Positions 1-18,883 of a stretch of DNA of 64,000 nt are shown piece by piece (position 1 is the stretch's first letter; each line of letters starts with the position of its first letter). This DNA is from Parahaliea maris (lineage in GTDB: Bacteria > Pseudomonadota > Gammaproteobacteria > Pseudomonadales > Halieaceae). The DNA lies in contig NZ_VRZA01000002.1 in NCBI RefSeq assembly GCF_008064665.1, forward strand, positions 310,001-374,000, given 5' to 3'. Made by a program: the position numbers and the translations under genes. Under the pieces are notes generated by a model. That model worked only from the letters and a program-made list of their open reading frames with translations, had not been told where the DNA came from and searched no databases.

Positions 1-435
1 CTTGCTGGCCAGATTCAGGCTTTCCAGCGGCAACACCACCTGTCCGAGCTCGTCGATCTGACCCTCCCTCAGGGCCTTGTCGTACTCCGCACGCAGCACC
101 AGAATGGCCGCCACTTCCTGCTGGGTGAGGCGCTGGCGCAAACCGCTGTTGAAGCTGTCATCTGTATCGGCCAGTCCAGGCACTTCTGCCCCGGGGGGGA
201 ACAGGCGCAGCGAGTGAAAGCGCGGTTCGTGCAGGATGCGGATGCGCAGTACCTGCAGGTAATCCTCCACCAGGTCCGCCACCTGCAGGTAGCGGTCGTA
301 GAATTCGGCCTCGCGCTTGCTCTCGTCGCGGCACAACACGCCGTTATCCAGCAGGCGGATCATGAGTTCGGAAAATTGCTCCGGGCTCAGGCCCCGGGTT
401 TCCAGGGTCTCCTCAATGATGTTGCTTATCGTCAT
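1..435 (-). CDS. jetB: JetB/MksE-like condensin subunit (DUF4194), 3' end cut by window edge
   Basis: I translated the reverse strand from an ATG at 435. The frame stays open to position 1, giving 145 residues of the N-terminal part. It opens [17 protein letters not shown] and continues as a helical, winged-helix-like protein with the segment [19 protein letters not shown], typical of the DUF4194 (JetB/MksE) family. This subunit normally binds the kleisin of an MksB/JetC SMC complex. Its start overlaps the end of the upstream jetA by 23 bases, so the two are translationally coupled, in the usual A-B order of Wadjet and MksFEB operons. The SMC ATPase and any JetD nuclease would lie outside the window. 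Family assignment rests on order plus sequence flavour. Confidence 0.72.
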
Positions 436-1855
436 CCTGTTCCAGTTCCAGCAGGAAGCCATCCCTGCGCGTGAAGTAGTGTTCGCCGGTGATCGGCTCG
501 TGGGTTTGCTCAACTTTCAGGTGGAAACCACCGCTGCGGTGCTCCGCACTGCCCAGCTCGATGACGTGGCTCAGCGCAAGCAGATCGGCGGCGCTGTCGA
601 TCGGCAGGTCGCGGCTGTCGATACGGCGGCTGGCACCGAGGGCATCCCGCAGGTAGTCGCGCAGGGCACCGCTGTTGATGTTGAAAGCTTTGTCCAGCAA
701 TTGCTGTGTCAGCAGCTCGCGCAGGGTGGCAGCGTCGGGTGATGCGATATCGTTGATGCGGCTCTGCACGACCCGCTGAGTGCGTCTTTCCCGCAGCCGG
801 TTTTGTGCGGGGTCCACCAGTCCAACACGAAGTTCGGCCATCAGTTCGCCGGCAGCATTGAGCCGCTGCTCGAACTCCCTGTCATCCAGGCCGGAGAGCT
901 CGCGGCACAGGCCGACGATGTCATTATGCTTCTGGCTGTGCAGGTAGTTGAGTTGGCGAATGATAATGTCGGCGCGCTTGGTGAAACCTTGCAGGGTGCG
1001 CCGCAGGGCCGGCAGCATGATTTCCGAGGCATTGCGCATGCGTGTTTCAATGCTGTCCAGCAGCTGCCACAGCACCGAGGCGTCCTCGTTGACCACCAGG
1101 TCCGGCGCCAGTCGCCTCAGTTCGCGCTCGGCGGCCTGTTTCCAGCTGTTGTGCTTGCGACGAATACTGGCGATGGTGTTCTGGATGCGATCGCGGTGCT
1201 TTTCCACGCTGTCGGCGGAGAGGCGAATCGCGACATCGGGCTGGAAGCGCTTTTCCATGAATTCGAAGAACTGGTCCGAGGCCTGCTGCACCAGCTGCTG
1301 GGCTTCCACTTCCCTGACCAGTTCCCGCTTGCGCTCCTCCAGTTCGGCGATGATGTCTGTAAAGTCGGCGATGATACGCTCCGAGTGTTCATGAGCGTCC
1401 AGCAGGTCGTAGACCTCACCGCGGTCGAGGAAGGCGGCCAGTGCATTGAGCGTATTGCGGGTGTTGCGGTGACGGGTGCGCACACTGCGCCCGTCCACCT
1501 CCGCCAGGGTCTGGGTAAACAGGCGCCCGGTACGGCTGAAGGGATAGGTGGATTGAAAGGAGGCCTCGTCCTTGTCCCGCTTGAGCCAGCCGTAATCCAC
1601 CAGCTGGTTCAGAATCCAGCTTGCCTGTTCCCGGCTACTGGTAAAGCGCCCCTCGTCCTCGCCCTCCAGCAGGGGCGCCCGTTCCAGCGCTTCGCTGAAT
1701 ATGTCCAGCACCTGCTCCCGGCGCAGGGATTCGCCATAGTCGGCGCGGGCGCTATAGAGTCGTTCGTGCAGCAGGCGCAGGCATTCGGCAATCTGTTCGC
1801 GGTACTTGCCGGTCAGGGGGCGAAAAAACTGGCTGCGCTCATCGGAGAAGAACAT
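413..1855 (-). CDS. jetA: JetA/MksF-like kleisin of a Wadjet/MksBEF condensin
   Basis: This is a 480-residue protein from the ATG at 1855 ([20 protein letters not shown]). The frame extends upstream to 1948, but those 31 residues are Pro/Arg-rich and look non-native. The size and the N-terminal winged-helix region match the JetA (Wadjet) / MksF kleisin family: a start of the form [10 protein letters not shown], then a long helical middle with repeated Glu/Arg heptads (about residues 140-400). The kleisin bridges the SMC heads. In Wadjet the complex extrudes and cleaves closed plasmid DNA. In MksBEF, which lacks JetD, it acts in chromosome organisation. Only the downstream genes, outside the window, can separate the two. 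It is divergent from the TPR gene at 2054 across about 200 bases. Confidence 0.75.
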
Positions 1856-2053
1856 GGTTGGTATCGGCCTGGTGGTGTTCTCGACAGGGCTTGAATCCGG
1901 CGTGCCTGAGGCGGGCGGCAGGCGCACCCGGAGCCAGCCGCACAACATAACAGAGTCGCCTCGCCTGGAGTAGTTTGTTCCCGCACTTAAGACTGCGGTA
2001 ACACAATCTCGCTAGTATGCCCCGCAAGTCAGGAGACTTCGGGAGACATCCGC

Positions 2054-2695
2054 ATGAATCGCAGCATATCGCAACTGCTCACCTGTCTGGCGCTGTGCCT
2101 GGGAACCACCGTAGCCGTGGCCCAGGACAATACCGTTTCGGCGGACGACATTCGCGCGCGCTGGGAACACGCCAATTTTGAGCTTTCCGGCGATGCCCGC
2201 GAACACGCGTTGGAGGAGGTGGCCGCGGCCTGTGAGCAAGCCACCGGCACCCACCGGGAAGACGCCGCACTGCTGACCTGGTGTGGCATTACCCACTCCA
2301 GCTACGCGGGAGCGAAGGGCGGCCTCGGAGCACTCGGTGAGGCCAAGCGCGCACGCGCTCTGCTGGAGCAGGCGGTGGAGGCGGATCGCAGCGTGCTCAA
2401 CGGCGCCGCCCTGTGCAGCCTGGGCACGCTCTACGCCAAGGTACCCGGCTGGCCGCTGGGTTTTGGCGATGATGAGAGAGCAGAAAAATACCTGCAGGAA
2501 GCCCTGACGGTGGCCCCGGACGATATCGACAATAACTATTTCATGGCAGACTTTCTGTACGGCGAGCATCGCCGGGAGGAGGCTCTCAAGTACCTGCAGC
2601 ACGCGCAGCAGGCCAGCCCAAGGCCCGGCAGGGAGGTCGCCGACCGCGGCCGCCAGGTGGAGATCAGCCAGCTGGCGACGCAACTTGCAAAATGA
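2054..2695 (+). CDS. Exported TPR-repeat protein
   Basis: The gene encodes 213 residues starting at an ATG behind a GGGAGA box. Residues 1-23 form a Sec signal peptide ending AVAQD, so the mature protein is periplasmic. The remainder is alpha-helical with TPR-like repeats: an ALLEQAVEADRSVLNGAALCSLGTLY segment split over about residues 100-130, then AEKYLQEALTVAPDD and ALKYLQHAQQASP. The WPLGFGDDERAEKYL stretch resembles the TatT/TRAP-associated TPR family, in which a G(W/F)PLxFG loop precedes a helix pair. Function is not known beyond protein-protein scaffolding. The cytochrome b561 gene follows 20 bases downstream and may be co-transcribed. Confidence 0.6.
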   Translation: MNRSISQLLTCLALCLGTTVAVAQDNTVSADDIRARWEHANFELSGDAREHALEEVAAACEQATGTHREDAALLTWCGITHSSYAGAKGGLGALGEAKRARALLEQAVEADRSVLNGAALCSLGTLYAKVPGWPLGFGDDERAEKYLQEALTVAPDDIDNNYFMADFLYGEHRREEALKYLQHAQQASPRPGREVADRGRQVEISQLATQLAK

Positions 2696-2715
2696 CCTGA
2701 CCCTGTGAGGCCTTG

Positions 2716-3261
2716 ATGAACAAGCCGTTGCCCCCGCGTTACAGCCCGAGCCTGGTGGCTCTGCACTGGTTGACCCTGCTGTTGATAATTGGCGCCTACG
2801 CCAGTATCGAGCTTCGGGAGTTGTTTGAACGCGGGACCCCCGAACGTGACTTCATGAAGTGGCTGCATTTCAACCTGGGCCTGACCGTATTCGCGGTGAC
2901 CGGCGCCCGTCTGGTGGCTCGCTGGTTTACACCGCTGCCGGCAGCGCTCGCCGGGACGCCTGGCTGGCAGGTCCTGTCTGCCCGCTTGCTGCACCTGGGT
3001 CTTTACCTGCTGCTGCTGGCCATACCCCTGCTGGGCTGGGCAATCCGCAGTGCCGAGGGTCATGAGGTCTCCCTGTGGGGGCTCGGGATTCCGGCGCTGC
3101 TGCCCGCCAACGAGGAGCGGGCAGAACTGCTCGAGGAGGTTCACGAGGTGCTGGGCACGGTGGGCTACTTCCTCATCGGGCTGCATGCACTGGCGGCGCT
3201 GGTGCATCACTATGTGCAGTCCGACGATACCCTGCGGCGGATGTTACCCGCGCGGCGCTAG
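2716..3261 (+). CDS. Cytochrome b561 family membrane protein (CybB-like)
   Basis: This 181-residue integral membrane protein starts at ATG 2716; a TTG sits directly before it. Four hydrophobic helices are visible, with histidines in the positions expected to ligate two b-type hemes: ALHWL in helix 1, KWLHF at the start of helix 2, LLHLGLY in helix 3, and EEVHEVLG plus GLHALAALVHHYV in helix 4. Members of this prokaryotic CybB/b561 family shuttle electrons between the quinone pool and periplasmic acceptors. The physiological partner is unknown. No partner such as a YceI protein lies next to it here. Confidence 0.85.
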   Translation: MNKPLPPRYSPSLVALHWLTLLLIIGAYASIELRELFERGTPERDFMKWLHFNLGLTVFAVTGARLVARWFTPLPAALAGTPGWQVLSARLLHLGLYLLLLAIPLLGWAIRSAEGHEVSLWGLGIPALLPANEERAELLEEVHEVLGTVGYFLIGLHALAALVHHYVQSDDTLRRMLPARR

Positions 3262-4559
3262 GAGGCGTTGCGTGACAGGGCGGCCGTCGCCACCAGCGCC
3301 ATTAGCGCCGCCGTTATGATGGCGGGAGCAATACCCCACAGGTCGGCGGCGGCGCCCATCACCAGGCTGCCCACGGCGGGCCCGCCCATGGCGAAGACGG
3401 TCCACAGGCTGAGGACCCGGCCGCGAAAACCCTCGTCCACGGCCAGTTGCGCCAGGGCCTGACTGCAGGTTCCCGTCATCGTGGTCAGGAGGCTCAGTGC
3501 GCCCACCACGATCGCGGTGGTGGCGAGGCTGGACAGCCAGGCCGCGGGCAACAATACCAGCGAGCTGCCCAGCAGGCAGGCCTTTATCAATCGCTGCAGC
3601 GCTTCCTCGCCACCGTGTTGGCGAGCCAGCAGCAGTCCGCCGATGACTGAGCCGGCGCCAGCGGAGCCGGTCAGTACCGCCAGGCTCGTAGCCGACCCGT
3701 CCAGCAACTTCCCCGATAGCGCCGGCAACAGTTCCAGCACGGTGCGACCGAGCAGCCCGTTGACCAGGGTCAACAGCAGCGCCAGGCGTATCGTGTCGTG
3801 CGCTCGCGCGTAGCGCATGCCCGCCGCCAACTGGGCGAGCATGGCGCCCTGCGACCGATGTTCCGGGGCTTCGATGCCGCGGATCGCCAGCAGTGGTAAA
3901 CAGGCGCCGGCGAAGAGGCAGGCGGCGATTGCAAACGCCAGGGACAGGGACGTATGCGCCAGCAGCCAGCCGGCCGCCGCCGGTCCGAGAATGCGCGACA
4001 CATTGAATACCACGGCGGTGATCCCGATCGCCCCCGGCAGTGTTTCGCGGGATACCAGGCGCGGTAACAGGGCCAGCCGCATCGGGTGATGCGCCGCGCT
4101 GATGGCGCCAATGCCCAGGGCCAGCAGTAACAGCCACTCGATGGAGAACCAGCCCAGCAAGATAGAAACAGCGGCCAGGGCTCCCAGTAGACCCTGGCTG
4201 CCAATGGTGCAGAGCAGGCCGCTGCGGGGGCTGACGCGGTCGGAGATGACGCCAAACAGCGGGGACAGGACGAACGTGGGCAGCAACATCAGGGCGCTGG
4301 TGATGCCCACCCAGAGTGCCGACTGGGTCAGTTCCCAGGCACTCCAGCCCAGCAGGAAGCGGCTGATCCAGGTCCCCATGTTGGACTGGCAGGAGGTGAA
4401 AAAGTAGCGCCGGAAGCCGGGCTCGGAAAATGCGGAAACCCGGGGTTGCGGGTCGCGGCCACCGTCGCCGGGTTGCTTGCTGTTGTCGTTACTGGTGGAG
4501 CGCAATGGCGTGTCGGGGAGTGGCCGCGGGGCTCGCCACTCTAGCGGTTGAGGGCACAT
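3258..4559 (-). CDS. MFS transporter (EntS/MFS_3-like exporter)
   Basis: The protein is about 433 residues from ATG 4559. The frame also permits a GTG at 4586, and the true start may be later, because the family usually begins a few residues before FRRYFFTSCQSNMGTWISRF. That opening (Phe-Arg-Arg-Tyr, then Asn-x-Gly-Thr-Trp) is characteristic of the EntS/MFS_3 group of drug and siderophore exporters. About twelve hydrophobic helices and the loop-2-like motif GVISDRVSPRSGLL are visible. The substrate cannot be inferred. Its stop overlaps the 3' end of the convergent cytochrome b561 gene by four bases. It is divergent from cbpA. Confidence 0.78.
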   Translation of the reverse strand: MCPQPLEWRAPRPLPDTPLRSTSNDNSKQPGDGGRDPQPRVSAFSEPGFRRYFFTSCQSNMGTWISRFLLGWSAWELTQSALWVGITSALMLLPTFVLSPLFGVISDRVSPRSGLLCTIGSQGLLGALAAVSILLGWFSIEWLLLLALGIGAISAAHHPMRLALLPRLVSRETLPGAIGITAVVFNVSRILGPAAAGWLLAHTSLSLAFAIAACLFAGACLPLLAIRGIEAPEHRSQGAMLAQLAAGMRYARAHDTIRLALLLTLVNGLLGRTVLELLPALSGKLLDGSATSLAVLTGSAGAGSVIGGLLLARQHGGEEALQRLIKACLLGSSLVLLPAAWLSSLATTAIVVGALSLLTTMTGTCSQALAQLAVDEGFRGRVLSLWTVFAMGGPAVGSLVMGAAADLWGIAPAIITAALMALVATAALSRNAS

Positions 4560-4679
4560 ACGGCAACGCCTGCATTGTGGCGACACTTGTAACTTTCACC
4601 GCAAGCACCATATTTAGGGTTTGGTAGCGCGAGTATTTCTCGCGCTGGGATACGGGCTAGTGAGGGCGCGGAAGGGCTT

Positions 4680-5624
4680 ATGGAATTCAAGGATTACTAT
4701 GCCATTCTCGGCGTTGAGCCGGATGCGGAAAAGGCGGACATCAAGACCGCCTATCGCAAGCTGGCGCGCAAATACCACCCGGACCTCAACCCGGGTGAGG
4801 AAGCCGAGGAAAAATTCAAGGAAGTGGCGGAAGCCTGGGAAGTTCTGGGCGACGATACCCGCCGTGCGGAATTCGATGAGCTGAGGCGCTACGGCGGCCG
4901 CAGGGCCGGTGGCTTTGAGCCGCCGCCCGGGTGGGAGTCGCGGGCTGCCGGGGGCAGCCATCACTTCAGCGGCGATTTCTCCGATTTCTTCAACAACATT
5001 TTTGGCGGTGGCTTCGACGCCGGCCCGGGTGAACAGGCTTTCCACCGCGGCCGCCCCGGGCGCGACGTGGAAATCGAGATGCCGGTCTTTCTCGAGGAGA
5101 CCCTCGCAGATACCCAAAAACCCGTGGAATATGAATTGCCGGTGATCGAGAACGGCCAGCGGGTCACCCGCCGCAAATCGCTGAAGGTCACGATTCCCGC
5201 GGGTGTAGGAGAGGGCGAGCGCATTCGCCTGCGCGGCCAGGGCGTGCCGGGCCAGGGCGGTGCCCCGGACGGTGATCTCTACCTGCACATCCGCCTGGTA
5301 CCCCACCCGCTATTCGATGTGCAGGGGCACGACCTGTTGGTGACCGTGCCGCTGGCCCCCTGGGAGGCGGCCCTTGGTGCCAAAGTGACGGTGCCGACGC
5401 TGGATGGCAAGGTGACCCTGACGGTAGCGCCGGACAGCCAGGCCGGTCGCAAGCTGCGGATCAAGGGCAAGGGGCTGGTCAGTAAGTCCGGCCGGGGTGA
5501 CCTCTATGCGCTGTTGAAAGTGGTCATGCCACCCAAGGCCGGCGACAGGGCCCGGGAACTGTGGCAGTCCCTGTCCGAGGAACAGGCTTTTGATCCGCGG
5601 GCCGAGTGGAGGGCGTCAGCATGA
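4680..5624 (+). CDS. cbpA: Curved-DNA-binding protein / DnaJ-class co-chaperone CbpA
   Basis: This 314-residue type II J-protein starts at the family start [18 protein letters not shown]. The N-terminal J domain (about residues 1-70) carries the HPD tripeptide in [11 protein letters not shown] that stimulates DnaK. A Gly/Phe-rich linker follows ([20 protein letters not shown], residues 98-117), then two C-terminal beta-sandwich substrate-binding domains ([17 protein letters not shown] and [17 protein letters not shown]). There is no zinc-finger domain, which separates CbpA from DnaJ. It is followed by its modulator cbpM with an ATGA overlap, the arrangement known in enterobacteria. Confidence 0.95.
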
Positions 5625-5929
5625 GCACCAGTATCCTGCGGATTACCGCGAGAGAATTCTGCGAGCGTGAAGGTGTCACCGAAGAACAGGTGGTGACGAT
5701 TGTGGAGCAGGGGATTGCCCGCCCGACGGCCGGGCAGCAGGCTCGCGACTGGGAGTTCGACACCACCTCGGCCCGGTGGATGCAGAAGGCGGTACGCCTG
5801 CATCGCGATTTCGACCTGGACTGGGTGGCCACGGCCATGTTGGTCGACCTGTTGCGTCAGCGCGACCGTCTCCACCGCGAGAACCGCAAGCTGCGGCAAC
5901 AGTTGCGGCGCTTTCTGCTGGAGGATTGA
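5621..5929 (+). CDS. cbpM: Chaperone modulator CbpM (MerR-like)
   Basis: The protein has 102 residues from the ATG at 5621, which overlaps the cbpA stop codon (ATGA). The open frame reaches an upstream GTG at 5606, but the overlap start is better supported. The fold is a MerR-type helix-turn-helix without a DNA-binding recognition context: [25 protein letters not shown], split as a helix pair in the first 35 residues, then [24 protein letters not shown] and a coiled tail. CbpM binds the J domain of CbpA and inhibits its co-chaperone activity. The pairing with cbpA makes the call firm. Confidence 0.88.
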
Positions 5930-6032
5930 CCACCCGTCTGGACTGTTATCATGCGGGGCTATACTGTGGTGAGGGACGCCCGGGGTCGGTCGATCGCCGC
6001 CGGGGGATGTGTCCCCTGGCAGAGGAGTGCGC

Positions 6033-7502
6033 GTGGGTAGCGATATCGACAGGACCGATTTTGACGACGGCGAGTTTGCCGCCTTCGGACAGCGTCTGGA
6101 GGACAACCTGCGCCAGTTGGAGGAGACCCTGGCGCAGCCGGGCTTCGGTGCCGGGAATGGTTCGCTCGGCTCGGAACTGGAGATGTATCTGGTCGACGCC
6201 GATGGCCTTCCCCTTCACGCCAACCAGGAGTTGCACGCCGATGCCAATGACCCCCAGCTGACGCTGGAGCTCAATCGCTACAACCTGGAGTACAACCTCT
6301 CACCCTGGCCGCTGGACGGACAGCCCTTCGCCAACACCGAGCGCGAAATACTGGACAAGCTGTCGGGCCTGCGGCAACTGGCAAAGGCCCGGGGCGGGCA
6401 AATTGTGCTCACCGGTATTCTGCCGACCCTGCGGCGAACCGACTTTGGCCCCCACTGCATTACCGACCGCAAGCGTTACCACGCCCTGGTCAAGCAGCTT
6501 ATCCGACGTCGCGGCCACGCCTTCAGTGTGGATATCAACGGGCCGGAACCCCTCAGGCTGCGCATGGCCGACATTACCCTGGAGGGCGCCAACACCTCCT
6601 TCCAGGTGCATTACCGGGTCCGCCAGGAGGACTTCGCCGACACCTTCAACGCTATCCAGCTGGTCACACCGCTGGTGCTGGCGGTCTCTGGCAATTCGCC
6701 CACCCTGTTTGGTCACTGCCTGTGGCACGAGACGCGGGTGCCCCTGTTCAAGCAATCCATCGATACCCGCATCCGGGACCGCTACGGCTGGAACGAGCCA
6801 GCCCGGGTCAACTACGGCCACGGCTGGGTTCGCCGCGGCGCGCTGGAACTGTTTGTCGAGGCGGTGCGCCTGTACGAGCCGTTGTTGCCGGTGTGCGCAG
6901 ACGCCCGCGAAGCGGAGCGCGAGCCACCGCCCCTGTCGGAGCTGCGCCTGCACCAGAGTACGGTCTGGTCCTGGAATCGCCCGGTCTACGACCCGGCGGA
7001 CGGCGGTCACCTGCGGATAGAAATGCGCGCGCTCCCGGCGGGGCCTACGCCGCTGGACATGGTGGCCAACGCCGCGCTGTTGATCGGCCTGGCGGAGGGG
7101 ATGCGTTCGCGGATACACACCCTGTTGCCGGGGCTGCCGTTCTACCTGGCCGAGCACAATTTTTACCGGGCTGCCCAGTACGGCCTGGCCGCGCCCCTGG
7201 TATGGCCGGAGACCGGCAGCAGCGGTTACCGCGAGCACCGCGCCCTGACTATCGTGCGCGAACTGTTGCCGCTGGCATACCGTGGGCTGGCTGAGCTCGG
7301 TATTGATAACGCCGAGGCGGAGCAGTACCTGGGGGTGATCGCCCAGCGCCTGTCCCGGGCCCAGACCGGGGCGTCCTGGCAGCTGATGCGCCTGGCGCGC
7401 CTGCGCTGTGAGCTGCCCCCGGAGGAAGTGAACAGCGCCTTGCTGAAGGAGTTTATCGGCCACAGCGTGAGTAATCGGCCAGTGGCGGAGTGGCCCTTGT
7501 GA
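6033..7502 (+). CDS. Glutamate-cysteine ligase family 2 (GCS2)-like enzyme
   Basis: The gene gives 489 residues from GTG 6033, chosen because AGAGGAG lies 5-6 bases upstream; GTGs at 6009 and 6027 are alternatives. It belongs to the GCS2/EgtA-like carboxylate-amine ligases: GSLGSELEMYLVD near residue 45 (Glu residues of the metal/ATP site), LELNRYNLEYNLSPWPL, and the later GNSPTLFGH and RIEMRALPAGPT segments are hallmarks. Such enzymes make an ATP-dependent gamma-glutamyl bond. The substrate is unknown, because the true GshA of gammaproteobacteria belongs to another subfamily. The stop overlaps the next gene, an AstE/AspA-type zinc hydrolase, suggesting the two act on related amide bonds. Confidence 0.8.
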   Translation: MGSDIDRTDFDDGEFAAFGQRLEDNLRQLEETLAQPGFGAGNGSLGSELEMYLVDADGLPLHANQELHADANDPQLTLELNRYNLEYNLSPWPLDGQPFANTEREILDKLSGLRQLAKARGGQIVLTGILPTLRRTDFGPHCITDRKRYHALVKQLIRRRGHAFSVDINGPEPLRLRMADITLEGANTSFQVHYRVRQEDFADTFNAIQLVTPLVLAVSGNSPTLFGHCLWHETRVPLFKQSIDTRIRDRYGWNEPARVNYGHGWVRRGALELFVEAVRLYEPLLPVCADAREAEREPPPLSELRLHQSTVWSWNRPVYDPADGGHLRIEMRALPAGPTPLDMVANAALLIGLAEGMRSRIHTLLPGLPFYLAEHNFYRAAQYGLAAPLVWPETGSSGYREHRALTIVRELLPLAYRGLAELGIDNAEAEQYLGVIAQRLSRAQTGASWQLMRLARLRCELPPEEVNSALLKEFIGHSVSNRPVAEWPL

Positions 7503-8512
7503 GGCGCTTCCGGTTTTTACGCAACCCTGACCCGGCGTCCCTCGGCAGCGACCTGGAATCGTTTCTGCGCGCTCTCGGTGGCCCTGCGTGCCTGTTCCTC
7601 GAAGGCGCCGACAGTTCTCGCACCCGGGCCTTTGTCACCCTCCTGCACGGCAATGAGCCCTCCGGCGCCCGGGCCCTGCTGCACTGGTTGCAACAGGGGC
7701 GGCAGAGCGCGGTGAACGTGGTGTGTATTGTCGCGTCGGTCAATGCCGCCCTGCAGCCCCCGCTCTACAGCCATCGTATGCTGCCGGGGGCACGGGATCT
7801 CAACCGCTGTTTCCGGCCTCCCTTTTCTGATGAGCAGGGACACCTGGCCGAAGAAATCCTGGAAATCCTGCGCCTGCACCACCCGGAAGCGGTAGTGGAC
7901 ATGCATAACACATCGGGCTCCGGCCCGGCTTTCGGTGTTTGTACCCACCGGGATCGTCACCACGACGCGCTGGTGTCGCTGTTTACCCGGCGCCTGGTGA
8001 TTACCGATATCGGCCTCGGTGCGCTGATGGAGATCACCGAGGAGAGCTGTCCCACGGTCACCGTGGAAGTCGGGGGGCGCCTGGATCGGGAGGCCCAGCT
8101 CACGGCCGACGCGGGGCTGGTGCGTTATTTTACCGCCGACAATGTACTGACACCCGTCGCCAACCCGGAGACGCTCGAGTACTTCGAGCACTCCATACGG
8201 CTGGAGCTGAACCCGGGCATGGCCCTGGCCTACGCCGACCAGCCGGTGCCGGAGGCCGACGTGACGCTGCTGCCGGATATCGAGCGGCACAATTTCCAGC
8301 CGGTAGACCCGGCTGTTGCCCTGGGCTGGGTCAAGGGCGATGCCAAGCGAGTCTTCCGAGCCCGAGATGGGGGCGGTCGTTGTGCGGTAGCCAGCCTGGT
8401 GCGGGTGGAGGAGGGCGCGCTGTTCCCGGCGCAGCGCCTCAAGCTGTTCATGGTGACCAACAACCCGGATATCGCCCAGTCGGACTGTATCTGCTACGCC
8501 GTCGAAGTCTAG
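7499..8512 (+). CDS. Succinylglutamate desuccinylase/aspartoacylase-family zinc hydrolase
   Basis: The gene gives 337 residues from GTG 7499, which is preceded by GGCGGAG and overlaps the stop of the ligase-like gene; GTG 7490 is an in-frame alternative. Zinc-carboxypeptidase-like motifs of the AstE/AspA family are present: LLHGNEPSGARALL (His and Glu zinc ligands, about residues 45-55), a later VVDMHNTSGSGPAFG (third ligand and substrate loop) and ITEESCPTVTVEVGG (catalytic Glu region). The family hydrolyses N-acyl amino acids. Context with a gamma-glutamyl ligase-like enzyme hints at a dedicated metabolite; that is inference. Its last codons abut a Pho-box-like repeat that drives the next operon. 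Confidence 0.8.
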   Translation: MRRFRFLRNPDPASLGSDLESFLRALGGPACLFLEGADSSRTRAFVTLLHGNEPSGARALLHWLQQGRQSAVNVVCIVASVNAALQPPLYSHRMLPGARDLNRCFRPPFSDEQGHLAEEILEILRLHHPEAVVDMHNTSGSGPAFGVCTHRDRHHDALVSLFTRRLVITDIGLGALMEITEESCPTVTVEVGGRLDREAQLTADAGLVRYFTADNVLTPVANPETLEYFEHSIRLELNPGMALAYADQPVPEADVTLLPDIERHNFQPVDPAVALGWVKGDAKRVFRARDGGGRCAVASLVRVEEGALFPAQRLKLFMVTNNPDIAQSDCICYAVEV

Positions 8513-8514
8513 GG

Positions 8515-8543
8515 CTGTCATCGGGCTGTCACAAAACTGACTT
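8515..8543 (+). promoter_or_regulatory. Triple Pho-box-like repeat upstream of the membrane sensor operon
   Basis: Three 7-bp units are set at an exact 11-bp period: CTGTCAT (8515-8521), CTGTCAC (8526-8532) and CTGACTT (8537-8543), separated by CGGG and AAAA. The PhoB box consists of direct CTGTCAT-like repeats with 4-bp AT-rich spacers, so the last two units form one box and the first two a second. The three match the unit in 7, 6 and 5 of 7 positions. A weak -10 (TTTTGT, 8554-8559) lies ten bases beyond. It would place the gene at 8579 under phosphate-starvation control; this is predicted, not shown. Confidence 0.6.
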
Positions 8544-8578
8544 ATCCTGCCGCTTTTGTCGCAAATGACCAGAGGCCG

Positions 8579-9430
8579 GTGCAACTCCCCCTTCCTGTAA
8601 ACAACAAGCTGCAGTACTTCCTGTTGCTGGCGCTACTGGCCCTGGGGCTGGCGGTACTGAGTGTAATCCTCAGCACGCCTCGGGTCGGGGCACTCGTCCT
8701 CAGCGAATACCAGTCCGTCTCCTGTACCACCGGCGCAGCCGCGGGCAAGGATAACCTGCAGATACTCACCCTGACTGACGCCTACGTCGAGGAACTGGCC
8801 ACTGCTACCTGTGCTGGCGAGGCGGTGGCGCGGGATTACAGCGACGTCACCATCAGCTGGCGCCCCCGTAGCTTCCTGTCTGGCAAGGACATCCTGGAGG
8901 GGCGCTACGACCTGTTCTGGAACCGCGAGCACCTGGTGCTGGGGATGGTGCCGGAGTTTTTTGACTACTATCAGCCGCTTCTGGAAACGCCCAGCTACGC
9001 GGTGTACTGGTTCAGCCGCGGCGGCCTCCCGGAAATGACCCGGGAGTACCTTGAGGGCAAGGTGGTGGGCCTGCTGGATGACCCCAGTAGCCAGACCTTC
9101 TACCAGCGACCCATGAATGCCCTCCACGAAGCCGGTATTGAGCTGACCGATCAGCAGTTGCGGTTATACCCCGATCCCCATGCCCTATATCGGGCATTCA
9201 CCACCGGAGAAGTCGATATCATCAGCGGGCCCATTTTTCTCGCCGAGCGCTTTCAGCTCGCCTACGAGCACCAGTTACTGATCGAGGACCGGGTCACTTC
9301 TGGCACCTGGTATGTGAACCGGCGCCTGGTGGGCAGCGGGGTCGAGTGCGACCTGCTGGCGGCGCTGGGGGTGACAAACCCCCTGTTGATTGGTGATCCT
9401 CTGGTCGCCGAGGGCATTCAATGCCCCTGA
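8579..9430 (+). CDS. Membrane-anchored periplasmic substrate-binding-like protein
   Basis: The protein has 283 residues from GTG 8579, with AGAGG just upstream. Residues 10-32 form one transmembrane helix. The remainder reads as a periplasmic type-2 solute-binding fold: DNLQILTLTDAYVEEL opening, YDLFWNREHLVLGM, an EYLEGKVVGLLDDPSSQTFY hinge region (about residues 160-179) and an FTTGEVDIISGPIF segment, the classic pattern of PhnD/SBP-like receptors. I do not recognise a named family. The anchor instead of a cleavable signal, no ABC permease nearby, and the 10-base overlap with the next gene suggest a sensor subunit rather than a transporter component. Pho-box-like repeats lie immediately upstream. 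Confidence 0.6.
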   Translation: MQLPLPVNNKLQYFLLLALLALGLAVLSVILSTPRVGALVLSEYQSVSCTTGAAAGKDNLQILTLTDAYVEELATATCAGEAVARDYSDVTISWRPRSFLSGKDILEGRYDLFWNREHLVLGMVPEFFDYYQPLLETPSYAVYWFSRGGLPEMTREYLEGKVVGLLDDPSSQTFYQRPMNALHEAGIELTDQQLRLYPDPHALYRAFTTGEVDIISGPIFLAERFQLAYEHQLLIEDRVTSGTWYVNRRLVGSGVECDLLAALGVTNPLLIGDPLVAEGIQCP

Positions 9431-10683
9431 CGCGGCGCCTGCGGGTCTGGCTCATCATCGCTATCGGGCTCTATGCACTACTGGTGGGTGTTGGTCAGAG
9501 TTATGCCGTGGACGTCTTCGTCCGGCAACTGCAGCAGGAACTGGCGGCATCGTTCCCGATCCGGCTCGCCTACATGATGCCGAGCTGGGAGGAGAGCTCC
9601 TTCTCCTGGACAGGGGTTGCCGAGGACGTCGACCGGGACCTGGCCGACCTGCCCCTGGCGCGTCCCGGGCCACTGGCACACTGCTCAGCGCGAGTTACGC
9701 GCGTGCAGGGGCAGGACACAGCGGAAGCGGCCGCTGGCGATCGTGTACTGTCGTTCGAGTGGCAGCAGGCAGACGAGACACGCTCGCTACAGGTGGCCGT
9801 GAGTTGCCAGCGCAACTGGCCTTTCCTGTTGCTGGGTCAGGGGGCTCTGGTGGCCCTGTTTACAGCATTTTGCCTGGCACTGCCACGGCCGCCCTCGACA
9901 CGCCAGCGCCGGTACCGGAAAAGCTTGATGCAGCTGGGCATCCCGCGGGGACAGGCCACGCGCTGTGTGCGTGGGGTCGATGCGCTGTCGGACCTGCAAG
10001 TGAGTGTGTTGAACAGCCTGTTGGGGCGCGTACAGACGGCGGAATTCGGCCTCCTGTCCGCGATGTTTGACTGGGTTGGCAGTGCAAAGGTTGCCGCGCT
10101 TGAGCCGGGAGACCTGCGCTGGTTCGAGCTGGCCCTCGAGCAGGACGAAGGGGAAGGTCTGGCCGCGTGGGAGAGCGCGCTGCAAGTGGCCCGCTCACCG
10201 GCCGAACTGGTGTTCTGCCCGGCGGAGTCAACAGTCCGTATCCACGGCCTGGCCGTGAAGCTTCCGGTAACTCCCTTCATCTATTACTACTGGTACGCCA
10301 TGCGCCGCCTGCGGGACGGGGCCGGAGAGGGGGGAGGCTGGTTTACCAACCCCGCTTCCAATCGCAGCGACCGCGAGCACGCCGGTGAACTGGTGGAATT
10401 GATGGAAGCCCACCAGGGGCACGGTAAGGCGACCCGCGACCTGCGCGAGAAAGGCCTGCGCTCCAAGATCCTCGACCAGAACCGCAGCAAGGTGAAAGAG
10501 CACCTGGCGAGCCTGCTCGGTGAGGCCCTGGCCGGCGATTACCTGTTCGAGATGGAGCGTGACCCGCGCACGGCGAGGTTCCGCTACCGGATCGCTACCG
10601 ATCCCCGTCATATTCGGGTGGAATCAACCCCGGAATGCACCCCGGAAGGGCTTGGAGAGATTGGAGAAACCGATTTGGAATGA
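9421..10683 (+). CDS. Transmembrane protein with C-terminal winged-helix-like domain (possible membrane regulator)
   Basis: The protein has 420 residues; its ATG overlaps the preceding gene by ten bases. Visible layout: TM helix 1 (residues 8-29), a periplasmic region of about 100 residues, TM helix 2 (about 131-153), then a large cytoplasmic part. From about residue 270 the pattern resembles an OmpR-type winged helix: strands VRIHGLAVKLP, then helix FIYYYWYAMRRLRDG, a helix with RSKILDQNRSKVKEHLASLL, and a hairpin ending FRYRIATDPRHIRVE. This would be a ToxR/CadC-like membrane regulator, but with the DNA-binding domain at the C-terminus. No named family is recognised. Its partner is most likely the substrate-binding-like protein encoded just before it. 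Confidence 0.5.
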   Translation: MPLTRRLRVWLIIAIGLYALLVGVGQSYAVDVFVRQLQQELAASFPIRLAYMMPSWEESSFSWTGVAEDVDRDLADLPLARPGPLAHCSARVTRVQGQDTAEAAAGDRVLSFEWQQADETRSLQVAVSCQRNWPFLLLGQGALVALFTAFCLALPRPPSTRQRRYRKSLMQLGIPRGQATRCVRGVDALSDLQVSVLNSLLGRVQTAEFGLLSAMFDWVGSAKVAALEPGDLRWFELALEQDEGEGLAAWESALQVARSPAELVFCPAESTVRIHGLAVKLPVTPFIYYYWYAMRRLRDGAGEGGGWFTNPASNRSDREHAGELVELMEAHQGHGKATRDLREKGLRSKILDQNRSKVKEHLASLLGEALAGDYLFEMERDPRTARFRYRIATDPRHIRVESTPECTPEGLGEIGETDLE

Positions 10684-10859
10684 CTGTAACTACCTGAAAT
10701 AAAGGGAAAACTAGTTTAGAGATGTCTCTCTGGCCGGTTTCGGCCCCCGTGTAACAAAACGCTCATATTCCATCCCGATACTGCTGCCCCAGCAACGCGC
10801 TGATGCGCACTTTCACCACCCATGTACGACACACAACAGATGTTTCTGGGGAGATACAG
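10684..10859 (+). promoter_or_regulatory. Upstream region of the TonB receptor with a degenerate Pho box
   Basis: Within this gap, GTGTAAC (10749-10755), AAAA, and CGCTCAT (10760-10766) form two 7-bp Pho-box-like half units at an 11-bp period, each matching CTGTCAT/C in five of seven positions. Exactly ten bases later is a -10-like GATACT (10777-10782), the spacing typical of PhoB-dependent promoters. A short GGCCG/CGGCC hairpin (10732-10745) precedes it without a T tract. Taken with the stronger repeat at 8515, this suggests shared phosphate control. Confidence 0.4.
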
Positions 10860-13316
10860 ATGACAGTTTTCCGCAAGTTTCCGCTGGCCGTCGCCGTAGG
10901 CGCAGCCCTCGGCATTCCGACCGTTCAGGCCCAACAGCTCGAAGAGGTAGTCGTTACCGCTACCCCGATTCGTGACAGCCAGCAGGCCTCCATCGACGCC
11001 AAACGCTTTGCCGACAACTACGTGGATATCGTTTCCGCCGATACCATCGGCCAGTTCCCGGACCAGAACCTGGCGGATTCGCTGGGCCGCCTGCCGGGCC
11101 TTGCCATCGAGCGCGACCAAGGCCAGGCCCGCTACATCAACCTGCGCGGTGCGCCCTTCCGGTACACCACCATCGCCTTCGATGGGATCGACGTGCCGGG
11201 GGCAGAGAATGGTCGTATCCCGCGTTTCGACAGCTTCCCCTCGGTGATCACCAGCCGCATCGAGGCCAACAAGGCCATCCTGCCCAACATGCCCGGTGAG
11301 TCTGTGGCGGGCTTTATCAACATCCATACCTTCAGCCCCTTCGACAAGGAAGGTTTCTCCATGGCGGCTGATGTGGGCACCGGCAAGCAGGACCTGGGCG
11401 ACGGCGATATCGAGAAGTATGGCCTGCGGGGTTCCTGGTCCAATGACAATTTCGGCCTGATGCTGTTTGGCTCCGAGAACAGCCGCGAACAGATTACCGA
11501 CAACCGCGAATATGAACTGGAGCCTGGCGAGAATGGTGAACTCACCGTGCACGACCTGGACTTCCGCAGCTACAAGGTGAAGCGTGAAGACCAGGCCTAC
11601 GGCGGCCATCTGGAGTACCGTGGCGACGGCGCCCTGCAGCGGGTTTATGCCTCCAAGCTCTACAGTGAGTTCCAGGATCACGAAGAGCGCAACCAGTGGG
11701 CGTTTTCGTCTGCGGCGCCGGTGGCCGGTGTGACAGCGGAAAATGTGCCGATGATCGTGTCGCGCAACCTGGAGCAGGGTCTGTACGAAAACTCCACCGA
11801 CACCACCACCCTGGGCGTCGACGTTCAGGCGGGTGAATGGTTTGTGGAAGGCAGTGTCAACTACACTGAGACCGAGTTCGGTATGGACCTGCCCATTCCC
11901 TACAGCGTGGGCGGCTTCACCATGGCGGACTACGACCTCAGCGACATCGAGGACCCGAAACTCTACCTGGCCACTGACCTGGCCGACATCGAGTACGCCA
12001 TGACCCTGGGCCTGCACTACGTGCAGCAACTCGATATCGAGGCCACCAAGTACAAGCTCGATGCAAGCCGCGATCTGGACCTGTTCGGCCAGGCTTCAAC
12101 CCTGTCCCTGGGCACCCAGTGGGACCAGCGCGAAGCCGGCGGTTTTGTCGCGACGCCGGTAATCGGTGCCTTCCCGGCGGAGATCGATATCGCCGACTAC
12201 GACACGGGCAAGGCCTGGGACGCCAATACCACCAATACTATCGGCGGCACCTACTTCAATAATGCCGGCCTCTACAATGCCTGGGCCAACGCAGCAGACC
12301 TGTCGGTCAACGGGCTGATTGGTGAATCCAACCTCATTGCCATCGAGGAAGACATCATCGCCGCCTATGCCATGCTTCGCACCGAGTTCAGCTGGGGTAA
12401 CGTGGTGGGCGGCGTGCGCGTCGAGCAGACCGACTACACCAGCCAGGGCACTCTCAACGATACCTCGGTGTCGGTGGACGACAGCTTCACCAATGTGTTG
12501 CCCAGCCTGCACTTCAACTTCGACCTGACCGAAGAGCTGAAGTGGCGGGTGTCTGCCTCCACCGGCGTCAACCGCCCCACCTACAACGAGTGGCGTGCGG
12601 CGGCGAGTGTCGATGTCACCGAGCAGACCGTCACCGGCGGTAACCCCACCCTGGAAGCGGAAGAGGCCATTGGAGTCGATACTTCCCTGGAGTGGTACTT
12701 CGCCCCGGCCAGCATCCTCTCCGTGGGTGCCTTCTACCGCGAGATCGACAACGTCATCTACACCGACGTTTCCACCATCGACGGCGGCATTTACTTCCCG
12801 CCCGCCGCCGGCGAATCCTGGGAATTCCAGGGTGCGGTCAATGGCAAGGACGGTATGATGCAGGGCCTGGAATTCAACGCCATCGCCCTCGCGGAAGACG
12901 TGCTGCCGGCGCCCTTCGACGGCCTCGGCATCAGCGCCAACCTGACCCTGATCGACTCGGAGTTCAAGTCGCTCGACGGCCGTACACTGGACCTGCCGGG
13001 CACCTCGGACATGGTCTACAACATCTCCCTGTTCTACGAGAAGTACGACCTGTCGGTACGCCTGAACTACCAGTACCGCGACGAATGGATCTCCCCGATC
13101 GAGGACCCGAGCGAGTACTGGGGTGAGCAGGAACGTGTCGACCTCTCCGTGGTGTACACCCTGCCCTTCGACTGGGAGGAGACCGCCGTGTCCCTGTACG
13201 CCAACGCCAACAACCTGACCGATGAGACCGATGTGCGCTACAGCGGCAACGGCACCATCAACCAGGCGGAGAGCTACGGTCGTCGCTACCTGGTGGGTGT
13301 GCGCGTCAACTTCTGA
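10860..13316 (+). CDS. TonB-dependent outer-membrane receptor
   Basis: The protein has 818 residues from the ATG at 10860, placed behind GGGGAG; an upstream in-frame ATG at 10803 has no ribosome binding site and would spoil the signal peptide. Signal peptide: residues 1-25, cleaved near VQA-QQ. The TonB box EEVVVTAT follows at once, then the plug domain (VSADTIGQFPDQNLADSLGRL; later RGAPFRYTTIAFDGI) and a long 22-strand barrel ending in the aromatic terminus YGRRYLVGVRVNF. The plug resembles the large group of TonB receptors that take up organic nutrients rather than siderophores. The neighbouring secreted phosphatase and Pho-box-like site suggest an organic phosphate ligand; this is inference. 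Confidence 0.93.
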   Translation: MTVFRKFPLAVAVGAALGIPTVQAQQLEEVVVTATPIRDSQQASIDAKRFADNYVDIVSADTIGQFPDQNLADSLGRLPGLAIERDQGQARYINLRGAPFRYTTIAFDGIDVPGAENGRIPRFDSFPSVITSRIEANKAILPNMPGESVAGFINIHTFSPFDKEGFSMAADVGTGKQDLGDGDIEKYGLRGSWSNDNFGLMLFGSENSREQITDNREYELEPGENGELTVHDLDFRSYKVKREDQAYGGHLEYRGDGALQRVYASKLYSEFQDHEERNQWAFSSAAPVAGVTAENVPMIVSRNLEQGLYENSTDTTTLGVDVQAGEWFVEGSVNYTETEFGMDLPIPYSVGGFTMADYDLSDIEDPKLYLATDLADIEYAMTLGLHYVQQLDIEATKYKLDASRDLDLFGQASTLSLGTQWDQREAGGFVATPVIGAFPAEIDIADYDTGKAWDANTTNTIGGTYFNNAGLYNAWANAADLSVNGLIGESNLIAIEEDIIAAYAMLRTEFSWGNVVGGVRVEQTDYTSQGTLNDTSVSVDDSFTNVLPSLHFNFDLTEELKWRVSASTGVNRPTYNEWRAAASVDVTEQTVTGGNPTLEAEEAIGVDTSLEWYFAPASILSVGAFYREIDNVIYTDVSTIDGGIYFPPAAGESWEFQGAVNGKDGMMQGLEFNAIALAEDVLPAPFDGLGISANLTLIDSEFKSLDGRTLDLPGTSDMVYNISLFYEKYDLSVRLNYQYRDEWISPIEDPSEYWGEQERVDLSVVYTLPFDWEETAVSLYANANNLTDETDVRYSGNGTINQAESYGRRYLVGVRVNF

Positions 13317-13343
13317 TCGGGGCTGATGTCTGCCCTGAACCCA

Positions 13344-13364
13344 CGCGCCGGCGCTGCCGGCGCG
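13344..13364 (+). terminator. Intergenic hairpin between receptor and phosphatase genes
   Basis: A perfect 9-bp stem, CGCGCCGGC with GCCGGCGCG, encloses a 3-base loop (GCT) and is followed only by CTTTCCC. The short T tract makes it a weak terminator, or an mRNA-stabilising/attenuating hairpin that lets the downstream phosphatase be made at a lower level than the receptor. Confidence 0.45.
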
Positions 13365-13390
13365 CTTTCCCAAATTCCAAGGATCACGCA

Positions 13391-14296
13391 ATGAAATCCC
13401 TTAAATACCTTGCCCTGGCCGTCAGCTTGGCCGGGCCCCTCTTCGCACCGATGGTCAATGCCGATATCGCAACCGCGGAAGCCCTGCAGCAGAAAACCGG
13501 TGCGCTCGACACCTATCGCAACGTGCTGCCGCTGGAAGGCGGCTCCAACTTCCGTGACCTCGGCGGCTACGTTACCGAGGACGGCAAAACCGTACGCAAG
13601 GGCCTGCTTTATCGCTCCGGTGTAATGACCAACCTTACCGATAAGGACGAGGACTACCTGTCCGGCATCGGTTTCGAGGCGGTGGTGGACCTGCGCAGTG
13701 CCGAAGAGCGCGAGCTCTACCCCAACCACTGGGTGAAAGACGCCAGCATCGACTACGTGGCGGTGGACTACCACTTCATGGATATGATGAAAGGCGGCGC
13801 CCGGAAGGAAATTTCTGTCACCCACGACATGGGCCAGATGTACCGGGGCATGCCCGTCAGCCTCAAGCCCCAGCTGACCGCCTACTTCGAGCAGGCCGTG
13901 GCCGGCCACGCGCCGCTGGTGGTCAATTGCTCCGCGGGCCAGGACCGCACCGGCATCGCTTCCGCCCTGATGTTGACCGCCCTGGGTGTGCCGCGCCCGC
14001 AGGTGATGCAGGACTATGTACTGTCCACTGAATACCGCCGGCCGCTGGTGGAGAAGGGCGGTGTCGACCTGGCCAGTGCCGCCAAAACCAACCCCTTCGC
14101 CGCGCTGATGCTGCGTTACTCGGACAAGGAGTCCACCCGCGCTGCGCCGCTGATCACCGCCGAGGGTATTCCCTACCTGTACTATGCCCTGCAACAGATC
14201 GAGGCGGACTACGGCTCGGTGCTGGCCTACATGGACAGGGAACTGGGAGTGGATGCAGCGGACGTTGCGCGCCTGAAAGAGCTGTACCTGATGTAA
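13391..14296 (+). CDS. Exported tyrosine-type protein/phytate-like phosphatase
   Basis: The protein has 301 residues, starting ATG at 13391 after an AAGGATC box. Residues 1-25 are a Sec signal peptide (cut after VNA). The catalytic P-loop VVNCSAGQDRTGIASALM carries the Cys-x5-Arg signature of cysteine-dependent phosphatases (about residues 176-193). Upstream, NFRDLGGYVTEDGKTVRKGLLYRSG (read in two halves near residues 54-78) is the hallmark of the Y_phosphatase3/tyrosine-serine phosphatase family. Export to the periplasm argues against a signalling role and for release of phosphate from organic esters, consistent with the preceding TonB receptor. The substrate is not known. Confidence 0.85.
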   Translation: MKSLKYLALAVSLAGPLFAPMVNADIATAEALQQKTGALDTYRNVLPLEGGSNFRDLGGYVTEDGKTVRKGLLYRSGVMTNLTDKDEDYLSGIGFEAVVDLRSAEERELYPNHWVKDASIDYVAVDYHFMDMMKGGARKEISVTHDMGQMYRGMPVSLKPQLTAYFEQAVAGHAPLVVNCSAGQDRTGIASALMLTALGVPRPQVMQDYVLSTEYRRPLVEKGGVDLASAAKTNPFAALMLRYSDKESTRAAPLITAEGIPYLYYALQQIEADYGSVLAYMDRELGVDAADVARLKELYLM

Positions 14297-18259: not shown

Positions 18260-18883
18260 GTGATCACTATCGACGACTCTTCTTCAGCGCCGCTGCGAGT
18301 GATCCTCGTAGACGACAACCCTGCCCGTGCCAACGCCGTGGCGGAGGGGCTGGCGCGGCCTGGCCTCGAGATTCTCTCGGTCATTCCCACCGCGTCCGGC
18401 CTGCTGTACCAGATGGCCCAGCAGGAACCGGATGTGGTGGTAATCGCCCTGGACTCGCCGGACCGGGACGTACTGGAGAGTCTGTCCATTGCCTCCACCC
18501 ACAATCCGCGGCCGGTGGTGATGTTTTCCGGTAGCGGTGATTCGGGCTTCATCGGTGAGGCGATCCGGGCGGGTGTCACTGCCTACCAGGCTGAGGACAT
18601 CAATCCAGAGCGGGTCCAGGCGGTGATCGACGTCGCCATGGCCCAGTTCTCCGCCTTTAACGACCTGCGCCTGGAACTGGACCGGACCCGGCAACAACTG
18701 GCCGATCGCAAGCTGGTGGAGAAGGCCAAGGGGCTGATCTGCGCCATTCACGGCGTCGACGAAGAGGAAGCCTTCAGTACCCTGCGGAAACTGGCGATGG
18801 ACCAGAACCAGACCCTGGGAGAGGTGGCGGGCAATGTCATTGCCGTGCTGGAAAAATCGCGACCGGAGCGAAAACCACGATGA
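18260..18883 (+). CDS. nasT: NasT nitrate-responsive ANTAR antiterminator
   Basis: The gene gives 207 residues from GTG 18260; no strong binding site supports this exact start. The N-terminal receiver-like domain (residues 10-125) opens LRVILVDDNPARANAVAEGL and has VIALDSPDRD near the usual phospho-acceptor position. A coiled linker follows (FNDLRLELDRTRQQLADRK), then the ANTAR RNA-binding domain (LVEKAKGLICAIHGVDEEEAF, read as two helices, and LGEVAGNVIAVLEK). NasT binds hexaloop hairpins in leader RNAs and prevents termination. Without nitrate it is held by NasS, encoded next with an ATGA overlap. Confidence 0.95.
   Translation: MITIDDSSSAPLRVILVDDNPARANAVAEGLARPGLEILSVIPTASGLLYQMAQQEPDVVVIALDSPDRDVLESLSIASTHNPRPVVMFSGSGDSGFIGEAIRAGVTAYQAEDINPERVQAVIDVAMAQFSAFNDLRLELDRTRQQLADRKLVEKAKGLICAIHGVDEEEAFSTLRKLAMDQNQTLGEVAGNVIAVLEKSRPERKPR

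Follow-up and report, generated by a model that had tools for sequence, protein, structure and literature searches.

What does a solute-binding protein do when no transporter is found beside it and its gene overlaps that of a putative membrane-bound transcription regulator? This question is raised by two genes of Parahaliea maris, here called A and B, which lie in a stretch of 64,000 nucleotides (assembly GCF_008064665.1, contig NZ_VRZA01000002.1, positions 310,001 to 374,000) that we refer to as the window. Open reading frame (ORF) A (8579..9430, plus strand, GTG start, 283 amino acids) is the proposed sensor, a membrane-anchored solute-binding protein of the PhnD/PtxB/AioX type. ORF B (9421..10683, plus strand, ATG start, 420 amino acids) is the proposed transcription regulator, a two-helix membrane protein with a C-terminal winged helix. 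We consider it likely that A and B form a two-gene membrane sensor-regulator dedicated to the adjacent phosphoesterase genes, which is induced by PhoB and in which B co-activates the target from within the membrane. This reading draws on the predicted folds of both proteins, their co-occurrence, a conserved Pho box, a palindrome linked to the target promoter and the variety of the phosphoesterase targets, all of which were computed.

The structure prediction for A (mean predicted local distance difference test score, pLDDT, of 82.6; seven-sequence alignment) gave 658 matches in the PDB at E<=0.001 using Foldseek. PtxB was on top (5o2k, E 9.6e-10), and PhnD, AioX, XAC2383 and HtxB were among the top 16; the VIA alignment gave Z scores of 13.4 for XAC2383 and 13.3 for PtxB. 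The predicted fold is that of a two-lobed PhnD/PtxB-type binding protein. A single hydropathy peak near the N-terminus, at residues 14-32 (8618..8674, plus strand), corresponds to the putative transmembrane anchor. The preliminary description, made from the DNA letters, had proposed a substrate-binding-like protein held by one helix, and this was confirmed by hydropathy, predicted fold and the match to PtxB. For comparisons between organisms we used 66 distinct loci in which both genes are present, duplicates between genome sets having been merged by the last 150 residues of A; four loci with B at a contig end and A not visible (L019, L104, L112, L127) and a CRISPR protein (L072) were left out. 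A hydropathy filter predicted one helix in A in 59 of these loci, two in five and none in two.

Judged through its relatives, A probably belongs to the PF12974 superfamily: 15 of 29 homologues are hit by the Phosphonate-bd model at E<=0.1, the best at 2.3e-6. In the putative pocket, S171 is kept in 65/66 loci and a serine or threonine at position 173 in 63/66. HMMER aligned the two positions with the S-T-S of PtxB (5jvb), weakly, with a whole-sequence E of only 0.97. We take this pair as the counterpart of Ser161 and Ser163 of AioX (PMC5908839); the pocket serines of the PhnD family thus appear kept in A. Moreover, Cys 49 and Cys 78 are present in all 66 loci, Cys 257 in 57 and Cys 282 in 59.

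The preliminary description had stated that no ATP-binding cassette (ABC) permease is present. The nearest match to a permease of the binding-protein-dependent type (PF00528, seven in the genome) lies at 33321 of the window, about 23 kb from B. A crude filter on the longest frames, which the PF00528 frame of the window passes with four helices, found same-strand frames with at least four predicted helices within 4 kb in 4/66 loci. They comprise a sulfate permease (L087), MatE proteins (L126 by Pfam, L128 and L129 by likeness) and FecCD proteins (L128 by Pfam, L129 by likeness). By this crude filter, the ABC permeases within 4 kb of A and B are of the FecCD type, in two close Vibrio loci (L128, L129), and an ABC permease is no regular companion of the pair (2/66). 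A second filter, for the EAA motif, was dropped because it missed its own control. Near A and B, no permease of the matching type was found in the genome of P. maris or in the 66 loci; ATPases were not searched for.

The genes were found together throughout. Among 390 genomes of the order, the profile of B matches 26 and that of A likewise 26, and 25 of these are the same genomes. Both leftover matches are weak: that of B (G302, locus L072, E 2.6e-4) is a Cas_NE0113 CRISPR protein, and that of A is in G228 (E 3.6e-4). B was found in 7/140 genomes of the family and in 6/398 genomes of the phylum, two of the latter being weak matches (L147, a Cas_NE0113 protein, and L148). By these counts the distribution of the pair is patchy. 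The named genomes contributed 58 loci, from Parahaliea, Zhongshania, Microbulbifer, Endozoicomonas, Pseudoalteromonas, Vibrio, Colwellia, Marinobacter and others. A stands directly before B in 55 of these 58 and in 29 of 30 loci collected earlier, all four misses having B at a contig end. The 10-bp overlap of the reading frames in the window (9421..9430, plus strand), which had been noted before, recurs as overlap or near-contact in orthologues, as counted from the longest frames. A close-relative scan of genome contigs for B alone gave no relatives, and neither B of Vibrio furnissii against plasmid records nor B of the window against phage records gave a match. The survey of neighbourhoods proposed in the preliminary description has thus shown that A and B co-occur and that phosphoesterase genes adjoin them.

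We rejected a transport role of A on the grounds of this co-occurrence and because no matching permease was found. It is extremely unlikely that A is an ordinary binding protein of an ABC transporter with its permease elsewhere and B an unrelated neighbour. The fold is indeed that of the transport proteins PhnD and PtxB, but A and B were found only together, A carries one predicted helix in most loci, and no permease of that type was found near.

How, then, could A act through B? Hydropathy of B shows two peaks, at residues 7-25 and 136-154, in line with the two helices proposed before, and several Arg and Lys residues lie on the sides taken as cytoplasmic. The model of B (mean pLDDT 84.4, eight sequences) runs from helix 1 through a periplasmic alpha-beta domain to helix 2, after which come a cytoplasmic segment that is helical (residues 160-258) and a domain at residues 261-401. 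The periplasmic domain (residues 30-131; 9508..9813, plus strand) is delimited by model, hydropathy and conservation and has two common cysteines, C88 in 52/66 and C129 in 51/66 loci. Its VIA rows include flagellar and ciliary proteins at Z 5.1-6.2, and we make no claim about its fold. The C-terminal domain (10201..10623, plus strand), the most conserved part of B, aligns with winged helices of OmpR, PhoB, CadC and ToxR. BaeR reached a VIA Z of 9.8 over 99 residues at 2.7 A, CadC 8.4 and ToxR 7.1, and the top twelve rows (Z 9.8-8.0) are all response-regulator or CadC domains of the OmpR/PhoB-type fold. Fifteen positions of this domain, preselected as invariant in an earlier alignment, are kept in 56 to 66 of the 66 loci. 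Residues 261-401 of B therefore model as an OmpR/PhoB-type winged helix. The C-terminal winged helix had been predicted in the preliminary description, with structure prediction and Foldseek as the check; the domain does model with a helix-turn-helix fold, with little help from Foldseek. The ToxR-like logic suggested there, with the DNA-binding domain at the C-terminus, fits this anatomy, in which B would bind DNA and contact A.

The model of B bears on how the regulator might be activated. Regulated proteolysis that frees the winged helix, in place of action in the membrane, seems improbable to us. The helical segment between helix 2 and the winged helix would be a possible cleavage zone; on the other side, the sequences give no sign of a protease, though none was searched for, and CadC, which is ToxR-like, binds its promoter as a full-length membrane protein (PMC5936718).

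The genes downstream of the pair point to what is regulated. In the window, B is followed by a TonB-dependent receptor (10860..13316, plus strand; PF00593, 1.1e-30; TIGR01782, 8e-148) and a tyrosine-phosphatase-like (PTP-like) protein of the Y_phosphatase3 family with a signal-like N-terminus (13391..14296, plus strand; PF13350, 7.8e-59), both of which are proposed targets. The next gene was typed by likeness to four representatives. It is a TonB receptor in 41 of the 66 loci, SurE in 15, a SurE lipoprotein in three and a PTP in one. Behind the receptor a PTP-like gene follows in 40/41 loci, the contig of L107 ending there. The other six loci comprise two with another TonB receptor and PI-PLC (L099 by Pfam, L108 by likeness), one with another receptor and Y_phosphatase3 (L117), one with two alkaline phosphatases (L124), and two on contigs of 3.1 and 3.8 kb in which no target was seen (L032 and L087). 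Overall, a phosphoesterase comes after the pair in 63/66 distinct loci, drawn from four Pfam families as judged on representatives: PF13350 (PTP-like), PF01975 (SurE), PF16670 (PI-PLC) and PF00245 (alkaline phosphatase). A crude filter found a hydrophobic N-terminal stretch in 57 of 59 PTP, SurE or lipoprotein genes checked, which is in keeping with export of the phosphoesterases. A quick tree of B has at least seven changes of target label; fewer are required by its well-supported (starred) branches, and the tree contains several long branches. Orthologues of the TonB receptor (E<=1e-100) occurred in 13/293 genomes, all of them carriers of A and B, so that no B-free control was obtained. SurE relatives, sought as a control for the operator, were found in 0/274 genomes at E<=1e-40, a search that had no positive control and is uninformative.

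Between B and its proposed target we found a palindrome, the predicted operator of B. In the window it reads TTTAGAGATGTCTCT (10715..10729, no strand assigned), with a 12-bp core at 10718-10729 that has one mismatch to AGAGATATCTCT. At up to two mismatches this core occurs within 320 nt after B in 57/66 loci. Its density is 3.10 per kb after B versus 0.023 per kb elsewhere in the loci, and it was found in only 2/366 control upstream windows (Fisher 7e-59). Markov shuffles gave a mean of 0.57 loci with the core and at most 4/66, by which we rejected a chance origin. Four of the nine loci without it carry the palindrome elsewhere: at the end of B (L089, L109), upstream of A (L032), and, in L061, at the 5' end of a receptor that is displaced from B by an intervening opposite ORF. 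Three more (L060, L076, L120) have it at three mismatches. In L119, a TonB frame that runs divergently carries a copy with two mismatches at its 5' end.

The specificity of the palindrome was examined in 24 carriers of A and B and 24 non-carriers picked from earlier searches. A perfect match to TTTAGAGATRTCTCT is found a single time in the 4.85-Mb genome of P. maris; at two mismatches there are three other sites, versus two for the reversed control pattern. Exact sites were found in 6/24 carriers, all at the module and nowhere else. Among the non-carriers there was one exact site (G157), with no relative of A, B or a target beside it. One-mismatch sites numbered six off the module in carriers and ten in non-carriers. 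On these counts, B gives the impression of regulating one site or few. These counts also speak to the idea that a different regulator binds the palindrome while B acts elsewhere or not on DNA, which would suit a protein without a Pfam DNA-binding match. We regard this as quite improbable, given that the exact pattern is single in the P. maris genome, that the exact sites of carriers are all at the module, the lone non-carrier site being isolated, and that the enrichment is confined to the region after B.

Two side observations concern copies of the palindrome. In L119, A and B have TonB and PTP genes running divergently on one side and SurE downstream on the other, each side with palindrome sites (6219 and 8456-8549), and one regulator may serve two phosphoesterase sets there. 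In L070, L071, L126, L128 and L129 an exact copy of AGAGATATCTCT is also found within B itself, 726-741 nt from the end of the gene; this copy may serve looping or autoregulation.

Under which condition would the pair be expressed? The PhoB box has the consensus CTGTCAT-4-CTGTCAT. Directly upstream of A, CTGTCATCGGGCTGTCAC forms an exact two-unit Pho box, CTGTCAT at 8515-8521 and CTGTCAC at 8526-8532. A third, weaker unit, CTGACTT at 8537-8543, continues the 11-bp period (whole box 8515..8543, plus strand), and TTATCC (8542-8547, plus strand) is a possible -10 of A. The three units at an 11-bp period noted earlier are thus borne out as two strong units and a weaker one. At up to two mismatches the two-unit consensus has four matches in the window; only that at 8515 is perfect, the others having two mismatches each. 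We scored the upstream regions of A against 374 upstream regions of other genes within the same loci. A two-unit score of at least 10/12 was reached in 21/66 versus 13/374 regions (Fisher 5e-11), and one of at least 9/12 in 50/66 versus 64/374. A Gibbs search upstream of A, with no motif given, returned.tGTCATA.aa.TGTCAtAAAA.tGaCaTA at a log-likelihood of 911 versus 469 for letter-shuffled input, the shuffled run having had fewer restarts. A chance origin of the box was rejected by its exact match and its enrichment upstream of A. This conservation supports Pho control of A and B as proposed before, with PhoB the probable protein on the box.

Ahead of the Pho box, on the plus strand, are genes for a GCS2-like ligase (6009-7502) and a protein with an AstE/AspA-type catalytic domain (7490-8512). 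Genes of these two types were not seen among the frames beside A and B in L014 or L015.

A second, weak Pho-like box lies at the target promoter. The order in the window is the palindrome (10715-10729), GTGTAAC-nnnn-CGCTCAT (10749..10766, plus strand), a GATACT that may be the -10 (10777..10782, plus strand) and the receptor start at 10860. The centre of the palindrome is about 65 bp before the putative start site. Across 62 loci, the best CTGTCA-like unit stands 41-42 nt from the operator start in 25, 30-31 nt in ten and 62-70 nt in 18, the rest being scattered; the peaks at 41-42 and 30-31 fit two Pho units 11 bp apart. A position upstream of a Pho-like box and a -10 is an activator-like one. 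With the same anatomy, B could instead work as a repressor or anti-activator, keeping PhoB from acting at the target promoter for as long as A has not signalled ligand or the loss of phosphate. A degenerate second copy of the palindrome about 20 bp on is suggested by a mean of 3.29/8 matches, versus 1.34-2.92 at other offsets from 12 to 39; in several loci it abuts the Pho-like box and could hinder PhoB. Repressors are, however, less usual upstream of an activator box and -10, where the best copy lies, and repressor genes need not be Pho-induced along with their target. We therefore regard repression by B as unlikely.

Taking B as an activator, the following sequence of events can be proposed. 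Phosphate starvation would switch on A and B through PhoB and the Pho box at 8515-8543. A, held in the inner membrane by its one helix, would sample the periplasm for a phosphorus oxyanion or an organophosphate, and we infer that it signals whether ligand is bound by touching the periplasmic domain of B. Membrane-held B would then bring its cytoplasmic winged helices together as a dimer at the palindrome (consensus TTTAGAGATATCTCTAAA), ahead of the target, and, together with PhoB bound just downstream, would switch on the genes for the TonB receptor and phosphatase. The target promoter would act as an AND gate, requiring that phosphate is short and that a usable substrate is present. The preliminary description was right about the pair and its Pho box; the palindrome at 10715-10729 and the target genes beyond it had escaped it.

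Several findings weigh against this reading. The hydropathy filter counted two helices in B in 48 loci, one in ten and three in eight. The best Foldseek match of the winged helix had an E of 0.11, none being at 0.001 or below, and none of 30 B members had a Pfam DNA-binding match above chance, although HMMER may miss such a domain; the winged-helix call hence rests on the model, the agreement of the top rows and conservation. The window's own A matched no family in Pfam or NCBIfam, and a whole-genome search with PF12974 matched two other places and not A. The A frame is defective in some loci, with a stop near the end in L065/G195, no anchor in L017 and a split into two frames in L126. The palindrome is absent at two mismatches within 320 nt of B in 9/66 loci, with no candidate at all in L017 and L087, and it could belong to another regulator. 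Finally, the target-side Pho box of the window is degenerate. In sequence searches, B of the window matched no family in Pfam and NCBIfam, PDB searches with early profiles gave no result, and those with a 30-member profile gave chance-like rows.

If the proposed mechanism is correct, it would explain how marine bacteria choose a secreted phosphatase or TonB uptake system under phosphate shortage, a step that the general PhoR-PhoB alarm alone does not decide. The sensor is compact, with two genes and one operator, and its exact predicted binding site makes it testable by a simple reporter.

Further genes were noted in passing. The two PF12974 matches elsewhere in the P. maris genome (G000:C11, 697751 and 742252) are far from A and B, and one is inside a long open frame. 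At 18260-18883 and 18880-20088 (plus strand) of the window, the frames of an ANTAR response regulator and of an NMT1-like binding protein (PF13379) overlap, which we take to be the layout of the NasT/NasS nitrate sensor; this pair is perhaps a second binding protein used for sensing in the window. A JetA-like protein (413-1948, minus strand; PF18982, 4e-27), a component of the Wadjet/MksBEF type, is encoded near the window start, and in L015 a cluster that by eye looks JetA-like adjoins A and B. PP2C phosphatase and protein kinase domains are combined in a single protein (20122-21972, minus strand), which adjoins a major facilitator superfamily transporter (21879-23345).

Which known systems does the pair resemble? 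With PtxB, PhnD and HtxB of the phosphite and phosphonate ABC transporters, A shares the fold and the phosphorus theme. It differs in its anchoring by an N-terminal helix, its common cysteines and the lack of a permease found beside it. AioX and ArrX, which bind arsenic oxyanions, are PhnD-fold proteins used for sensing and not for transport, as proposed here for A. AioX shows that such a protein can sense for a kinase (PMC5908839), and its pocket has S-x-S where A has S-x-S/T. AioX is thought to signal to the histidine kinase AioS and a response regulator (PMC5908839), whereas the partner of A is a membrane winged-helix protein; of the genes of the window that were typed (413 to 14296), none is an adjacent histidine kinase or response regulator. 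The C-terminal domain of B also resembles Cas_NE0113 proteins (PF09623), which account for two of its three weak distant matches (L072 and L147, the third being L148). PF09623 covers another, N-terminal part of these proteins, which are CRISPR-associated by name. The winged-helix region of B weakly matches their C-terminal part (L072:7216-8340, minus strand; L147:715-1998, plus strand), which suggests that a CRISPR accessory protein has a winged-helix domain in common with a membrane regulator linked to phosphate. By eye, the neighbours in L072 look like cas genes.

The strongest likeness is to the co-component systems VtrA/VtrC, ToxR/ToxS, TcpP/TcpH and PsaE/PsaF, described in PMC9214523 and PMC4933562 as adjacent, often overlapping genes for a membrane-tethered regulator and a sensor. 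VtrA and VtrC, whose genes overlap by 17 nt, form a heterodimer (PMC4933562). A and B agree with these systems in their adjacent, overlapping genes, in the predicted membrane tethering of both products, in the combination of a proposed periplasmic sensor partner with a regulator that models with a CadC/OmpR-type helix-turn-helix, and, as in most co-component regulators, in a periplasmic cysteine pair. They differ in gene order, the regulator being first in co-component systems and second here. The co-component regulator has an N-terminal helix-turn-helix, one helix and a C-terminal periplasmic domain, in keeping with the ToxR-family layout (PMC5936718), whereas in B two helices precede a winged helix at the C-terminus. 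For this wrong polarity we rejected the idea that B belongs to the ToxR family as an ordinary member. Moreover, the partner is lipocalin-like in the systems described, with one half-barrel exception, and a PhnD-type binding protein here, and the phosphoesterase neighbours and upstream Pho box set A and B apart. We do not file the pair as a co-component member, since the regulator layout and the lipocalin-like partner are lacking, yet it appears to work like one. The preliminary description knew of no described system with this arrangement. The arrangement itself was indeed not found in the literature searched, which left most subscription papers outside, and among the matches listed for the letters of the palindrome none was on this subject by title or abstract; what the preliminary description had overlooked is the co-component class with its two-gene membrane-sensor logic (PMC9214523). 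Tentatively, A and B may represent a separate class of bacterial signalling, in which an anchored solute-binding protein directly switches a membrane factor of reversed polarity that binds a palindrome beside PhoB. In addition to the general phosphate alarm, each set of exported phosphoesterases would have a substrate check of its own, the switch being kept while the enzyme is swapped (PTP, SurE, PI-PLC, PhoA). The co-component idea, known from virulence control through lipocalin-like sensors, would thereby extend to nutrient control through solute-binding proteins, with the winged-helix output placed at the opposite end of the regulator.

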